In this document: positions 1 through 4,509 of the stretch, piece by piece
Numbering within the stretch: position 1 is the first letter of the stretch
How the letters are laid out: every line of letters starts with the position of its first letter
NCBI GenBank assembly: GCA_016193065.1
Contig: JACPSX010000242.1
Span: 1 to 14,007, forward strand
Direction of reading: 5' to 3'
Length of the DNA: 14,007 nt
Origin: Candidatus Tectimicrobiota bacterium
GTDB taxonomy: Bacteria > JACPSX01
Program-made: the position numbers and the translations under genes
Notes under the pieces: model-generated
What the model saw: the letters and a program-made list of their open reading frames with translations, nothing else
The model's database searches: none
What the model was told of the DNA's origin: nothing

Positions 1-432
1 CACGTCGGCTGCGAGCACGGAGTCTGCGGCTGCTGCACCGTTCTCATCGACAACCACCCAACTCTTGCCTGCCTCACCCTGGCTCACAGTGCCGCTGGAC
101 ACATGATCACCACCATCGAAGGAGTTGCCCAAGGAGGTGTCCTTCATCCTTTGCAGGAAGCTTTTTTGGAAGTGGGAGCGGTTCAGTGCGGCTATTGCAC
201 TCCGGGGATGATTCTGACGGCCAAGGCCCTCCTGGACGAAGAGCCCGAGCCCAGCGAAGAACAGATCCGCCAGGCCCTGGCGGGCAACCTCTGCCGCTGC
301 ACGGGCTACCAGGCCATCATCGACGCCGTGAAGCTTGCCTCAAAGCGGTTGCTGGCCGGTCAGGATACTGGCCTGGAGACTTCCCCTCCTCCCAGGTGGC
401 ACGATCTCAGTTCGAGACCCCCTGAGAGATAA
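1..432 (+). CDS. [2Fe-2S] small subunit of a molybdenum hydroxylase (CoxS/XDH type), 5' truncated
   Basis: The reading frame is open from base 1 and ends with TAA at 430-432; about 143 residues are visible and the N-terminal part of the plant-ferredoxin domain lies outside the window. Counting from the first visible residue, GCEHGVCGCC carries the cysteines of the first [2Fe-2S] cluster. QCGYCTPGM and CRCTGY, in the C-terminal helical domain, carry those of the second. In this family the subunit passes electrons between the molybdopterin subunit and an FAD subunit or external acceptor in the cytoplasm; substrates include CO, xanthine, nicotinate and aromatic compounds. The partner subunits are not in the window, so the substrate is unknown. 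After SKRLLAG the protein has a Pro/Arg/Ser-rich tail of about 25 residues. This differs from the short tails of the two downstream 3'-end copies and may come from inserted DNA. Confidence 0.93.
   Translation, partial: HVGCEHGVCGCCTVLIDNHPTLACLTLAHSAAGHMITTIEGVAQGGVLHPLQEAFLEVGAVQCGYCTPGMILTAKALLDEEPEPSEEQIRQALAGNLCRCTGYQAIIDAVKLASKRLLAGQDTGLETSPPPRWHDLSSRPPER
286..323 (+). repeat. 38-bp direct repeat, copy 1 of 3 (others at 1291-1328 and 3870-3907)
   Basis: The 38 bases beginning aacctctgccgctgc are identical at 286-323, 1291-1328 and 3870-3907, all on the plus strand. They encode [12 protein letters not shown], the second Fe-S motif of the CoxS-type protein. Copies 1 and 3 extend the match upstream: 224-323 against 3808-3907 shows a single mismatch, at 261/3845. 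Copy 2 loses similarity immediately upstream of the core. Downstream of position 323 all three diverge but remain homologous. The repeats bound the toxin-antitoxin modules and could be recombination sites or remnants of paralogous genes. Confidence 0.9.
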
Positions 433-494
433 GCTCGCGATATGCTAAGATATGAAAATGAAACGAAGCCCTGAAAACGAGGTAGGGGTGTTCG

Positions 495-806
495 ATGACC
501 CGCAGTGAACGTCTTGTTGCCATTGCCGAAAGACTTCGCCGCGATTACCACGCAGAACGTGTAATCCTCTACGGCTCTGTCGCCCGGGGTGACGAGACCG
601 AAGAGAGCGATATAGACTTGCTGATTATCGCCTCGACGAGGGAACACTTCTACGAGCGGATGGCCACGGTCAGAAAAATCATGCGGCCCCTTCGTGCGGG
701 ACTCGTTCTCTCTCCCATCGTTCTGACCCCTCAGGAGATTCAGGCCAGCGTTGAGCACGGAGACCAGTTTATCGAGGAGATCCTGAACGAAGGGATTGAT
801 CTGTGA
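495..806 (+). CDS. MNT-domain nucleotidyltransferase, antitoxin of an MNT/HEPN pair
   Basis: This is a 103-residue minimal nucleotidyltransferase. The motif GSVARGDETEESDIDLL at residues 27-43 gives the GS signature, the R-G-D turn and the two metal-binding aspartates (D39, D41). The start ATG has a purine-rich ribosome site (gaggtagggg) about 6 bases upstream. In studied MNT/HEPN systems the MNT protein acts as antitoxin by AMPylating or otherwise blocking the HEPN RNase. The next gene starts at 803 with a GTGA overlap, which implies coupled translation in a two-gene operon. The pair sits between two copies of the CoxS 3' end and looks like an inserted cargo module. All visible catalytic residues are present, so it appears intact. 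Confidence 0.88.
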   Translation: MTRSERLVAIAERLRRDYHAERVILYGSVARGDETEESDIDLLIIASTREHFYERMATVRKIMRPLRAGLVLSPIVLTPQEIQASVEHGDQFIEEILNEGIDL

Positions 807-1201
807 CCACACCAATGGAGTCATCATACCCGGCTGACTGGAAGCGGTTAGCTCACAAGGATTGGCGGCGGATCAGGCTTCACCTTCGAGAAAATGATCC
901 TGAGGGAGCAGCATTGTTCCTCCAGCAAAGCCTCGAGAAATTCCTCAAAGCCTATCTTCTGGAGCGGGGCTGGAAACTTAAGAAGACGCACGAACTTGAC
1001 GCTCTACTGGAAGAAGCCTGTGTCCACGATCCCGGCCTTGTGTCCTTCCAGGACCTGTGCGAGCGAGTCTCGGGTTATTACCTTGCAGAGCGTTATCCAA
1101 TCGGATCGCAGGCTCCTCTGCCGATTTCCGCAGTAGAACGGGATGTGGACCAAGCGCGCCATCTCATAGACCATCTGTTCCCCGAAGAAACACTCGAATA
1201 A
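803..1201 (+). CDS. HEPN-domain protein, toxin-side partner of the MNT protein
   Basis: A 132-residue protein if the GTG at 803 is used; an in-frame ATG at 815 is the alternative. GTG is preferred because it overlaps the stop of the MNT gene (GTGA). The HEPN signature is clear: QQSLEKFLKAYLL (residues 41-53), KTHEL (61-65) and YYLAERYP (92-99) match the PF05168-type helical bundle. The RNase motif R-x4-6-H of active HEPN toxins is not obvious, because R97 is followed by no histidine at that spacing. The protein may therefore be a weak or non-catalytic member, or may act through the KTH histidine region. It probably forms a complex with the upstream nucleotidyltransferase. Function as a toxin or phage-defence effector is inferred from the pairing alone. 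Confidence 0.82.
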   Translation: MTTPMESSYPADWKRLAHKDWRRIRLHLRENDPEGAALFLQQSLEKFLKAYLLERGWKLKKTHELDALLEEACVHDPGLVSFQDLCERVSGYYLAERYPIGSQAPLPISAVERDVDQARHLIDHLFPEETLE

Positions 1202-1204
1202 CTC

Positions 1205-1254
1205 CCTCTTCAGGTGAAGGCAGGAGCTTTCTGGAAGCTCCTGCCCTGAAGAGG
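1205..1254 (+). terminator. Long nested hairpin after the MNT/HEPN operon, possible terminator
   Basis: The inner stem is a perfect 11-bp inverted repeat, 1219-1229 against 1235-1245 (ggcaggagctt / aagctcctgcc), with a 5-base loop. It is extended by a second perfect 9-bp stem, 1205-1213 against 1246-1254, leaving a 5-base bulge (gtgaa) on the 5' arm. It starts just after the HEPN stop codon and lies about 35 bases before CoxS 3'-end copy 2. No T-run follows, so it is not a classic rho-independent terminator. It could act as a bidirectional stop, an RNA-stability element or a folded recombination site. Confidence 0.55.
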
Positions 1255-1287
1255 CTTACTTACCGTGCAAGATACCTCACTCTCTCC

Positions 1288-1380
1288 GGGAACCTCTGCC
1301 GCTGCACGGGCTACCAGGCCATCATCGACACCGTGAAGCTCGCCTCCAAGCGCCTGCTTGCCAGCAAAGAGAGCACCTGA
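1288..1380 (+). pseudogene. Second copy of the CoxS-type gene 3' end (30 codons)
   Basis: In-frame sequence encodes [13 protein letters not shown] followed by DTVKLASKRLLASKEST and a TGA stop at 1378-1380. It reproduces the C-terminal cluster motif and final helix of the protein ending at 432. There is no start codon, no N-terminal domain and no upstream homology beyond the core repeat, so it cannot make a functional subunit. The downstream part (1329-1371) differs from the first gene at several positions, mostly third-codon changes. That suggests a paralogue or an older duplicate rather than a recent tandem copy. It marks the right edge of the MNT/HEPN insert. Confidence 0.85.
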
Positions 1381-2179
1381 GAAGTTTTCTCATGCGCAAA
1401 AAACCTACGAAGAGGAGACAATTGCAGATCACATAGCAATTCCGAGGAGATTTTCTTAAATCCTCAATCCTATCTCTCAACTCGCCGATCTTGTTTTCCA
1501 GTCCAAGCCCGTAAAACCCCGACACTTCTGCCAAGAGATCCGTCATCATCCAAAGTCCGTACTCGATGGCCACATAAGCCCGTAGCATTGCAATTTCGGT
1601 TTGACTACTGGTTAAAGTCCCATCGGAAAGAGGCATGTGTTCTTGGAGGTCACCAACATGGGCCGTCTCGCAAGCTTGCCTGTAAATCCCCTGGTAAACC
1701 GATCTGAGTCCACTATCGCGAGCCTTTTTCTCCAGCTTAAGTTTCTTATAGTTTTTCCACTCGTCATCCAAGCCAAGGGTAATCGCTTTGAAATCGTTAT
1801 CCCATGAGGAAATGTATTGTGCTTAATTCGCAAAGTTGCCGACATTTTGAAGAAATGTGATTTTCTGACGAATCCCTTCTGCAATAACAAGCTTAGCTCT
1901 CGTATCATCTGTTTTCTGCACAACCCAGTGAAGATAAATGAAACACTCAACTAATGTCTTTAAATGGTGAAAGGCCTCTGGGCGATTTTTTTGCACGTCT
2001 TCAACTAAGCATTCAAACGTGTCGGACATTTTCAGGCCAAAGCCAATGAGCACGCGATTCCGCCAACTCAATTGCTGACCTTGTACCTGAAGAAGGATTT
2101 TGTCTTTAGTATCCTTGACAAAGGAGCGCAATTCTTCGGCAAGCTCCATATATCCCTGTAGCTTCTCATCTGCCGACAT
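1322..2179 (-). pseudogene. DUF5677-like gene interrupted by an in-frame TAA
   Basis: A start ATG at 2179 has a good ribosome site (AAGGAG) just upstream. The frame runs 118 codons to a TAA at 1825-1823, then continues in the same frame through AQYISSWDNDFKAITLG and on to 1322. One nonsense codon therefore separates two halves that read like one protein of about 265 residues. Helical segments with RPEAFHHLKTLVECFIYLHW in the first half and IYRQACETAHVGDLQEHM in the second resemble the DUF5677 family, whose function is unknown to me. The last ~18 codons read antisense through CoxS 3'-end copy 2, so the native 3' end was probably cut off at that junction. Surroundings are A+T-rich. The family assignment is tentative; the interrupted frame is directly visible. 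Confidence 0.6.
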
Positions 2180-2543
2180 CTTCTTCTCCTTTTTGCCGAA
2201 TGCCTCCCATTCTCATCTCCTCTGCCCAGGTCTCCAGATATTGGATGGAAGTTCCTACATCAGCGGGATGCAAGACAAAGGGCATTACAGATATAACTGG
2301 ATCAATTGACAATGGCTCCAGGCTCCAGAAACGTTCCCCAAAAGGGCCGAGCTCTTTGCTTTTGATTCCAGCCGGGGTAAACCCCAGGATGGAGAGTTGC
2401 GGTCCCTGCGTGCCCGGCCTCGGATAGCAACCCGCCGGGCGGGGGTGGTTTACCAAAGTCAGTCGGCCCTCTTCGAAGTCCCAAGAAGGGGCCGGCTCCT
2501 CAAAAGGCGAGTTAATGACGGGATTATCCACTACGAGGGACAT
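2166..2543 (-). pseudogene. N-terminal stub of a type III restriction subunit, fused to unidentified sequence
   Basis: The frame starts with an ATG whose A is the last base of the VapC stop codon (TGATG). The first ~40 residues, including NPVINSPFEEPAPSWDF and a following Arg-Pro-Ala-Gly segment, match from memory the N-terminus of DEAD/DEAH-type Res subunits (the BPTD_3080-like restriction enzyme family), which run to about 900-1000 residues. After PRPGTQG the similarity ends. The remaining ~80 residues (containing MPFVLHPADVG and IQYLETWAEEM) are not recognised and may be another broken gene. No helicase or nuclease motif is present, so restriction activity is impossible. The end overlaps the ribosome site of the next minus-strand gene. 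Confidence 0.5.
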
Positions 2544-2950
2544 CAGAGACTGCCGGCTATGGCTTCCGATGGGGCCTTTCTGCCACGCCTGGTCCGGTCA
2601 AAATCTGCATCAAAACTGACTATAGTCAGGTCAAATTTTTCCGCAGCAACAAGCTGATAGGCATCGTCGAAGTCCAATTGGAATTGGCGCCCAGCCGTAA
2701 TCACTTCCTTGAGGTCACCAGTTTCCAGATGGATTTTCCTGACTCCGGAATCTTCAAGAACATCTGTGAGGAAGTCTCGAAACACCCCATCTTTTCTTAA
2801 CCGAATGAGAATGACACCAATAGAGTAAAGAGCAAAATCGGTTATCGAGAGAAGACTTGCTTCGGTTTCTGTGAAGAATCTGCGAGCCTCGGCTGCCTTT
2901 TCCTGTTCCAGGAGGAGTTCTAACCAAACGTTAGTGTCAATCAGAAACAT
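2543..2950 (-). CDS. vapC: VapC-type PIN-domain toxin (putative endoribonuclease)
   Basis: A 135-residue PIN-domain protein. It begins MFLIDTNVWLELL with the first metal-binding aspartate D5. SITDFAL supplies a mid-domain acid (D38), DFDDAYQLVAAE supplies D96, and IVSFDADFDR supplies D114. Members cleave tRNA or rRNA and are held inactive by a small antitoxin. The ATG at 2950 is chosen because its A overlaps the TGA of the upstream antitoxin gene (TGATG); a TTG one codon earlier is possible but less likely. The stop TGA at 2545-2543 overlaps the ATG of the truncated Res-like gene in the same way. All key acids are visible, so the toxin looks intact. Confidence 0.88.
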   Translation of the reverse strand: MFLIDTNVWLELLLEQEKAAEARRFFTETEASLLSITDFALYSIGVILIRLRKDGVFRDFLTDVLEDSGVRKIHLETGDLKEVITAGRQFQLDFDDAYQLVAAEKFDLTIVSFDADFDRTRRGRKAPSEAIAGSL

Positions 2951-3156
2951 CAATCACCCCACCATTCCAACGCCTTCCTTTGAAGTTCCAAAGAGGTAAA
3001 CTGATCCCGAAACTCCCTTAGCCCTCCTGCCCAACTCAGGCGCAACTTTTTTTGCTTCGGCCGAGCTCTTCTCTCCAGTAAGGCCCGAGCAAAATCCTGA
3101 ACTTCTTTCCGCAGCTCCGGCGGCAACTGTTTCATAATCTCTTCAATCGTGGACAT
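2950..3156 (-). CDS. DUF2281-like antitoxin of the VapC toxin
   Basis: A 68-residue basic-acidic protein beginning MSTIEEIMKQLPPELRKEV, typical of DUF2281-like antitoxins that precede PIN toxins. Start ATG at 3156 is preferred over upstream in-frame starts because an AGAGG ribosome site lies about 8 bases before it and homology begins there. The tail FTSLELQRKALEWWGD is the kind of C-terminal segment that wraps around the toxin. The stop codon overlaps the vapC start by one base (TGATG), so the two are translationally coupled. The frame upstream of the chosen start runs without a stop into a HEPN stub and the MNT gene, so a longer fused product starting at 3228 cannot be excluded. Confidence 0.75.
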   Translation of the reverse strand: MSTIEEIMKQLPPELRKEVQDFARALLERRARPKQKKLRLSWAGGLREFRDQFTSLELQRKALEWWGD

Positions 3157-3195
3157 GAGTTTACCTCTCTTGGCTTTCGCCTTTGACCTTCCTCG

Positions 3196-3228
3196 CGCAT
3201 CGTGCAGAAGGGAGTCACGCTTGGCCAT
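3196..3228 (-). pseudogene. N-terminal remnant of a DUF86/HEPN toxin
   Basis: An ATG at 3228 overlaps the last codons of the MNT gene by 14 bases, the usual arrangement for MNT-DUF86 pairs. It encodes MAKRDSLLHDA, close to the conserved start of DUF86 HEPN proteins (basic residues, then RD, LL and D). After this the sequence becomes a Lys/Arg-rich linker and runs in frame into the DUF2281-like antitoxin. The simplest reading is that the rest of the HEPN gene was deleted and its first codons were joined to the upstream side of the VapC module. The match is short and made from memory, so this is tentative. Confidence 0.4.
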
Positions 3229-3523
3229 ACACGACCTCAGCTTTGGCCAGAACCTCATCGCGGAAATATTTGCTCAAAGACCTAGGAGTGTTGATATCCA
3301 CCTTCTTACAGCCGCCCAGAACCGCCAACAACTCTTGCTCCAAATCGTACAGCTTGAACAAGCCCACCCGGGCCCCTGGCTCAAACTCCACCAGCACGTC
3401 CACGTCGCTTTCCGGGCCGAAGTCTTCTCTGAGGACGGACCCGAACAGAGCCAGCTTTCGGATGCAATGACGCCGGCAGAAATCGGCGATCCTGTCTTTT
3501 CGTATCTCGATGCTTGTCTTCAT
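3215..3523 (-). CDS. MNT-domain nucleotidyltransferase, orphan antitoxin
   Basis: A 102-residue minimal nucleotidyltransferase with LFGSVLREDFGPESDVDVLV at residues 26-45: GS, R32, D34 and the metal aspartates D40 and D42 are all present. It resembles the MNT members paired with DUF86 HEPN toxins more than the one at 495-806, so this is a separate system. The expected downstream HEPN gene is missing apart from a short stub, leaving this as an orphan antitoxin ahead of the DUF2281/VapC pair. The start ATG at 3523 has only a weak ribosome site. The same-strand order MNT, antitoxin, VapC suggests they may share a transcript. Confidence 0.85.
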   Translation of the reverse strand: MKTSIEIRKDRIADFCRRHCIRKLALFGSVLREDFGPESDVDVLVEFEPGARVGLFKLYDLEQELLAVLGGCKKVDINTPRSLSKYFRDEVLAKAEVVYGQA

Positions 3524-3639
3524 TCTGCAACTCGGAGTCTGAGGCTCTCTCCAACCTCGGACAAAGTACCCTGGTGAACGCCCTCACCGAGAACTTCCAC
3601 TTATTGTTAAGTTTAGCACACATCCGGATCCGTTTATAG

Positions 3640-3807
3640 CCCGCCAACCACCCCTACATCTTCATCCCCAGTCAGGCGCTCAGGCGTCAGGTCAGCTACC
3701 AGAAACTCTCATTCCGTAGCGCCGAGCAGGCGTACGAAGTGGCCGCTCCCTCTCAACGCACTCTTCTGCGGGTCCTGCGGGATGACCCGGTAAATCGGGT
3801 CCGATTT
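3640..3807 (+). other. Unidentified open segment, possible gene remnant
   Basis: From a TAG at 3637-3639 the frame is open and reads a plausible peptide (HPYIFIPSQALRRQVSYQ, later SAEQAYEVA and LLRVLRDDPVNR) up to the edge of CoxS 3'-end copy 3, where it goes out of frame with the copy. No start codon with a ribosome site is seen and I recognise no family. It may be the internal fragment of a gene trapped at the junction, or chance open sequence. The rest of 3524-3639 holds nothing I can support apart from the upstream region of the minus-strand MNT gene. Confidence 0.2.
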
Positions 3808-3971
3808 AGGCCCTCCTGGACGAAGAGCCCGAGCCCAGCGAAGAGCAGATCCGCCAGGCCCTGGCGGGCAACCTCTGCCGCTGCACGGGCTACCAGGCCA
3901 TCATCGATGCCGCCCAACTCGCCTCCAAGCGGTTGCTTCCTAGCCCCAAGACCACCCCGCCCGCTCTGTAA
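3808..3971 (+). pseudogene. Third copy of the CoxS-type gene 3' end (54 codons)
   Basis: In-frame sequence from the codon at 3810 encodes [20 protein letters not shown], the CRCTGY cluster motif, [11 protein letters not shown] and a short tail ending in TAA at 3969-3971. It matches 224-323 of the first gene with one mismatch in 100 bases, then falls to clearly lower identity over the last helix. The match starts abruptly at 3808 after unrelated sequence. No start codon or N-terminal domain is present. The short tail ([10 protein letters not shown]) looks like a natural CoxS C-terminus, so this copy may preserve the original gene end displaced by the inserted modules. Confidence 0.9.
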
Positions 3972-4081: not shown

Positions 4082-4102
4082 GAATGCCGGGAGGTGACTT
4101 CT

Positions 4103-4327
4103 ATGCGGCTTGAGCTAACCGCGGTCTTCAGGAAAGTGCCCGAGGGCTATATCGGCTTCGTCGAAGAGCTTCCAGGCGCAAACACTCAAGGAGCTACGCT
4201 GGAGGAGGCGCGGGCGAATCTCCGGGAAGCCGTCGAGCTTGTACTGGAAGCCAACCGCGCTCTGGTGGAAGAGGCGCTGGGTCAGGAGGACGTAATTCGG
4301 GAGCCTCTTCGGATTTCTGCCGGGTGA
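4103..4327 (+). CDS. hicB: HicB-type antitoxin
   Basis: A 74-residue HicB-fold protein: ELTAVFRKVPEGYIGFVEEL forms the first strands, PGANTQGATLEEARANL is the family's central signature, and a helix (LREAVELVLEANRALVEEAL) follows. HicB mimics a partial RNase H fold and neutralises HicA. The ATG at 4103 is chosen over the GTG at 4094 because GGGAGGTG at 4089-4096 then sits at the correct distance. No separate DNA-binding domain is visible at the C-terminus, so autoregulation, if any, would work through the complex. The stop overlaps the hicA GTG start (GTGA). The antitoxin-first order is the reverse of the E. coli pair but common elsewhere. Confidence 0.88.
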   Translation: MRLELTAVFRKVPEGYIGFVEELPGANTQGATLEEARANLREAVELVLEANRALVEEALGQEDVIREPLRISAG

Positions 4328-4509
4328 AGCGGCGGGAACTTATCCGGCATCTGGAAGCCCACGCCTGCGAGTTTCTCCGGGAAGGCAGCAATCACACCGT
4401 TTACGTCAACCGCAAGGCTCGCAAAGTTTCCACTGTCCCACGGCACCGTGAAATCAACGACTTTCTCGTACGGAAGATCTGTCGGGATCTGGAAATCCCA
4501 GAGCCCTGA
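4324..4509 (+). CDS. hicA: HicA-type mRNA interferase toxin
   Basis: A 61-residue protein with the HicA double-stranded-RNA-binding-like fold. KRRELIRHLEAHACEFLREG leads to the catalytic histidine in GSNHTVYVN (H24), and VPRHREINDFLVRKICRDL is the C-terminal signature. HicA cleaves mRNA and tmRNA independently of the ribosome. Start is GTG at 4324 overlapping the hicB stop, giving coupled translation. Length and key residues are normal, so the pair looks functional. It lies just downstream of CoxS 3'-end copy 3, at the right edge of the cluster of toxin-antitoxin modules. Confidence 0.9.
   Translation: MKRRELIRHLEAHACEFLREGSNHTVYVNRKARKVSTVPRHREINDFLVRKICRDLEIPEP

Follow-up and report, generated by a model that had tools for sequence, protein, structure and literature searches.

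Displaced gene ends beside toxin-antitoxin modules suggest repeated insertion at ordinary gene ends without an integrase

Integrative elements such as e14, whose target is icd, may insert at a gene's 3′ end, supplying a replacement 3′ end and leaving the native end displaced. In superintegrons, toxin-antitoxin (TA) cassettes are arrayed between repeats. How most chromosomal TA modules move is an open question, many of them having no linked mobile element. Here we analyzed a window of 14,007 bases, an entire contig (C202; JACPSX010000242.1) of a Candidatus Tectimicrobiota metagenome-assembled genome (MAG), in which the 3′ end of a coxS-type [2Fe-2S] gene occurs three times with TA genes between the copies. 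Our results suggest that TA genes have entered repeatedly at the termini of ordinary genes through recombination between matching DNA, not by an integrase. Integration of DNA with one-sided homology to a gene end has been studied in Escherichia coli, where in 56 of 60 clones a recircularised molecule had integrated by one crossover and the sequenced integrants carried a 109–950 bp duplication of the gene end (PMC3240628). Sequential displacement has also been proposed for the effector-immunity arrays of the Vibrio cholerae type VI secretion system (T6SS) (PMC5361080).

Copies of the coxS end and the genes between them

The MAG comprises 294 contigs and is 86% complete. Since the window spans its entire contig, it lacks the 5′ half of coxS. 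The copies and their parts are as follows.

1–432, plus strand: coxS-type [2Fe-2S] gene, copy A with tail A (open reading frame (ORF) with Fer2_2; in frame, 5′-open at the contig start)
224–323, plus strand: segment of A matching 3808–3907 at 99/100 positions, followed by 25/37 over 324–360; probably recipient-derived up to the crossover
286–324, plus strand: core common to the three copies (A–B 39/39, followed by 28/36; B–C 38/39)
325–432, plus strand: tail A, a putative replacement 3′ end arriving with insert 1 (beyond the core, A–B 28/36 and A–C 25/37)
1288–1380, plus strand: copy B, displaced coxS 3′ end of 31 codons including the stop (sequence match to A)
3808–3971, plus strand: copy C, displaced coxS 3′ end, presumably the oldest, native end (sequence match to A)

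All three copies lie in one orientation and one frame, and each has a separate stop codon and its own tail, the tails still being coding. Exact direct repeats in the window reach 62 nt, whereas none in 50 shuffled versions was longer than 15 nt, and blastn matched A to C and A to B with E-values of 6e-46 and 2e-21; the three-copy repeat exceeds chance. At least five coxS paralogues occur elsewhere in the genome, and because these are full-length and only 50–61% identical in protein sequence, A, B and C belong together. A preliminary description of the window had reported three copies in a single orientation that end in separate stop codons and have different tails, which the coordinates, identities, shuffles, translations and alignments bear out. 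The extents that it gave required correction: the A–C match starts at 224, and the part common to all three covers 286–323. A phylum-wide search for relatives returned the genome itself as the sole match, and a GTDB scan with CoxS yielded no close relative, the best coxS match being 71% identical in amino acids.

Identity along the copies is mosaic. Change-point tests gave p values of 0.0005 for A–C and 0.0075 for A–B, or 0.059 and 0.0035, respectively, when restricted to synonymous differences. Among 29 natural coxS pairs with tails 0.7–0.8 identical, identity in the preceding 99 nt did not exceed 0.94, versus 0.98 here. Given this comparison, near-identity up to approximately 323 followed by divergence makes the intact coxS resemble a hybrid with its crossover at about that position.

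The gene content first attributed to the intervals was then compared with profile matches. MNT/HEPN in the first interval was recovered as PF01909/PF18765 and PF05168, and HicBA beyond the third copy as UPF0150 (HicB-like) and HicA. For the second interval, DUF2281, PIN and MNT were matched by Pfam and the DUF5677-like gene scored just below the cut-off, whereas the proposed "Res stub" had no Pfam or NCBIfam match.

495–806, plus strand: MNT nucleotidyltransferase, MntA-like antitoxin with GSX10DXD (PF18765/PF01909; NCBIfam MntA below its cut-off)
803–1201, plus strand: HEPN-domain protein, partner of the MNT protein (PF05168, 2e-15)
1205–1254, plus strand: strong terminator-like hairpin after HEPN (−39.2 kcal/mol; z −3.9 for 1195–1290)
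1322–2179, minus strand: DUF5677-like pseudogene whose 3′ part extends into copy B (PF18928, 23.1 bits)
2166–2543, minus strand: ORF tentatively likened by motif to a restriction/helicase N-terminal stub
2543–2953, minus strand: PIN-domain (VapC-like) toxin (PF01850, 7e-12)
2950–3258, minus strand: DUF2281 antitoxin (PF10047, 5e-15)
3215–3523, minus strand: MNT gene without a HEPN partner (PF18765/PF01909; PADLOC PDC-S09, 6.5e-26)
4094–4327, plus strand: HicB-like antitoxin (UPF0150; PF21748)
4324–4509, plus strand: HicA toxin (PF07927, 3e-10)

The first interval holds an MNT protein with GSX10DXD adjoining a HEPN partner, one feature of type VII (MntA-HepT) systems; the RX4–6H RNase motif of HepT-like proteins was not found in this PF05168-type HEPN on a check by eye. 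The DUF5677-like gene is open apart from a single in-frame TAA at 1823–1825. The A–B block (MNT-HEPN), nearest to coxS, is intact and the B–C block farther away is decayed, as serial insertion predicts. As had been described, no integrase was visible in the window: none was found among its Pfam-matched ORFs, and a PF00589 search of the genome gave no match in this contig. The window also contained no tRNA, tRNA attachment site or known RNA family. The hairpin at 1205–1254 is long and nearly perfect, stands directly 3′ of the HEPN gene and lacks a clear T run.

Recurrence at other genes and in other genomes

Neighbourhoods around MNT, HEPN, PIN and HicA genes were examined elsewhere in the same genome. 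A displaced gene end or fragment lay nearby in 8 of 42 other TA neighbourhoods, compared with 0 of 48 control stretches (Fisher p = 0.0015), the control sets being modest in size and the classification of neighbourhoods partly made by eye. The following six loci illustrate the layout; the eight are completed by C73 and C48, at which second copies have undergone internal deletion.

C283: hsdR 5′ end, two copies flanking MNT-HEPN (found in a sample of contigs)
C8: glycosyltransferase 5′ end around PHD-PIN
C62: 3′ end of a NOV_C gene around MNT-HEPN
C113: rsmF-type 3′ end around DUF2281-PIN (rsmF itself may be frameshifted)
C37 (L272:5300–7980): intact and displaced copies of the mqnC/cofH 3′ end around HicBA and a degenerate tyrosine integrase fragment
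C25: cytochrome c 3′ end in three copies; a BsuBI/PstI restriction-modification system forms the second insert

The BsuBI/PstI system of C25 (L223:5281–8522) is flanked by two 181-nt repeats, each consisting of the cytochrome c 3′ end and about 80 nt of non-gene junction. Because the repeats include this junction, a pre-existing remnant was duplicated in its turn. When inserts were compared across loci, no common sequence was found except the MNT/HEPN genes themselves, and some inserts, of 0.6–0.9 kb, consist of TA genes only. In the clear cases, the remnants measure 80–165 nt and derive from genes of 0.5–2.9 kb. C210 was excluded because it holds a duplicate of a whole gene. A looser count of any spanning repeat reached 13 of 37 TA neighbourhoods, but it includes dispersed intergenic repeats (at C130, C147 and C270, also at C7, C116 and C292) that inflate it, and it is unsuitable for counting gene ends. 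Families of dispersed intergenic repeats lie near TA genes of this genome (L251, L242, L220, L227 and L244), some of which translate as LTQTLSP..GGEG, a kind common in MAGs. A common dispersed repeat was considered as the cause of the layout and rejected, since the gene-end copies are unlike between loci. Separately, a CRISPR-like array with the repeat GTTTCAATCCCTTCTTCGTCAGGTCAAGCCTTCCAAC stands at the start of contig C1 (L158:65–348).

Intact and displaced ends were compared at seven loci of this genome. The alignments are ungapped and contain 68 synonymous and 38 nonsynonymous changes (pS 0.37, pN 0.066, p = 2e-18) and no stops, the displaced remnants being hardly decayed. Because the differences are mostly synonymous, the ends come from two diverged functional homologues, not from a decayed target duplication. 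A displaced, functionless duplicate would drift neutrally, and the synonymous bias therefore indicates that the ends were joined recently relative to their divergence. The hybrid pattern, identity up to a crossover followed by divergence, is present at mqnC as well as in the A–C and A–B comparisons of coxS.

The layout recurs in unrelated genomes. In genome G041 (C1:96814–103270; L350/L351), five tandem 3′ ends of a DUF218 (ydcF-like) gene face the same way and are separated by PIN, MNT-HEPN and other TA modules, and all five share a perfect common 3′ terminus including the stop codon; this array is the window layout at a different gene. In genome G045 (L333:461–4617), MntA-HepT lies between an SNF2/NOV_C helicase gene and a displaced, nearly identical 72-bp copy of the helicase 3′ end, which leads directly into the beginning of the following gene (by its motif, a methylase) through an operon-typical ATGA overlap. 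In a weak case from genome G034, at 73% identity, a PIN gene follows a gene for an M64 peptidase whose end also occurs displaced. No such arrangement was found in 1.04 Mb around unrelated coxS loci, where the single flagged locus proved to be a full-length paralogue.

A proposed route of insertion and its rivals

The explanation that we favour, to which we would give roughly an even chance, is serial insertion of addiction-module DNA, in which homology to a gene end on one side provides the anchor and addiction accounts for retention. The incoming foreign DNA would comprise the end of a homologous gene together with an addiction module, usually TA and in one case restriction-modification. The first joint would form by homologous recombination inside the resident gene end, and the second would be illegitimate, arising either when a recircularised fragment crosses over once or through homology-facilitated illegitimate recombination. 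In each event the resident gene would gain a new end, and its old end would be shifted downstream as a truncated remnant. For the window, we infer that native coxS with tail C came first, that an insert carrying tail B and the DUF5677/Res/PIN/MNT block followed, and that the insert with tail A and MNT-HEPN is the newest. Insertions flanked by repeats would be easily lost through recombination between the repeats, whereas addiction modules would resist this loss, which would explain why TA and restriction-modification genes are found inside the inserts; addiction thus probably has a role in retention. Repeated insertion with replacement ends, as put forward in the preliminary description, fits the identity to approximately 323, the differing coding tails, the intact near and decayed far blocks, and the recurrence.

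Several observations weigh against this explanation. Neither an empty site nor a donor was seen, the phylum search having yielded no relative, and classical homology-facilitated illegitimate recombination yields deletions, not duplications (PMC3240628). The mosaic is clear at coxS and mqnC only and weaker at hsdR; the rsmF and NOV_C gene copies are evenly diverged, and those of the glycosyltransferase and of G041 are identical at the outer end instead. About half of the TA-spanning repeats are the dispersed intergenic ones, not gene ends. Internally deleted second copies of whole genes stand beside TA genes at C73 and C48, and in this fragmented MAG the contigs C113, C147 and C130 terminate within their repeats.

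The strongest rival, which we regard as possible but clearly less probable, is that second copies of the genes decayed: a complete, diverged homologue beside the resident gene, either a xenologue or an old paralogue and perhaps part of a second cox operon, would have been deleted down to its end while TA genes accumulated in the decaying DNA. The copies are indeed diverged ends of functional homologues, and the synonymous bias alone does not tell replacement-end insertion apart from the loss of most of a full second copy of the gene. The second interval is rich in broken genes, the genome has its further coxS paralogues, and for C73 and C48 this explanation, which the preliminary description raised for the window as fragmentation of paralogous cox operons, looks right. 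For the window it is less favoured: near-identity to one point followed by divergence is unexpected for old paralogues, the genome has no further close copy of coxS, and none of 80 related coxS loci has a truncated extra copy within 8 kb. The short remnants at the other loci, moreover, always include or approach the gene terminus, and it is their shortness, this constant position and the hybrid pattern that favour insertion over second-copy decay.

Site-specific integrative elements that carry a replacement gene end, with the integrase lost or acting in trans, would be the analogue of e14 in icd; the preliminary description had likened the locus to integrative elements at tRNA or housekeeping genes. 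The anatomy of an identical core with a replacement end matches, accretion was serial in both the window and G041, the five G041 copies share their perfect terminus, and the C37 insert contains a degenerate tyrosine integrase. The comparison across loci does not support the analogy, however. The targets are unrelated genes, used at both 5′ and 3′ ends, and the inserts, down to those with TA genes only, share nothing beyond MNT/HEPN; one integrase is therefore unlikely, and the window has none. We consider this origin unlikely.

Insertion with long target duplication, of the type described for Helicobacter pylori restriction-modification systems, with the copies diverging afterwards, is disfavoured for this genome and seems quite improbable. 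Direct repeats of about 100 nt do surround addiction modules, the published cases show long and variable duplications on the order of 100 bp (PMC3874152), and the G045 copies are nearly identical; yet a functionless duplicate should decay neutrally and not by mostly synonymous changes, and the tail differences are concentrated on one side. Misjoined contigs of coexisting strains are the least credible source, very unlikely even with 294 contigs and three of them ending in their repeats, since the window junctions contain no Ns, the association with TA genes is strong and longer contigs of other genomes have an equivalent layout.

Serial insertion by one-sided homology may extend further. Tentatively, and with a fairly low chance of being correct, TA and restriction-modification modules might constitute a widespread integrase-free cassette system in which each module carries a short piece of a host gene end as its homology address and builds arrays held by addiction; such cassettes would insert at the matching gene in other genomes.

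Comparison with known systems

A displaced, coding-diverged gene end beside a module would offer a searchable signature of insertion, of its direction and of its order. Serial insertion by this route would link the mobility of TA and restriction-modification systems through one form of recombination, and it predicts that addiction protects repeat-flanked insertions that are otherwise unstable, which is testable in laboratory strains.

Compared with e14-type elements, the loci are alike in that replacement and displaced ends flank the insert, but here there is no integrase and no common core, and the targets are many. An array of addiction modules between repeats also recalls superintegron TA cassettes, although the repeats here are gene ends and the integron integrase is absent. 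The single-crossover duplication of gene ends (PMC3240628) likewise relies on homology to a gene end on one side to anchor foreign DNA; a laboratory plasmid was the incoming DNA in that work, whereas here we propose diverged homologues, natural serial events and an addiction-module payload. In the V. cholerae T6SS modules (PMC5361080) and orphan Rhs 3′ ends, successive one-sided insertions similarly shift the old end downstream, but the displaced ends are those of the effector and immunity genes, while the host gene here is unrelated to the payload. Restriction-modification insertions with long target duplication (Nobusato et al. 2000, cited in PMC3874152 and PMC1643837) also have direct repeats of about 100 bp on either side of an addiction module; the present loci differ in that the repeats are diverged coding homologues, the payload is mostly TA, and the insertions are repeated at one site.

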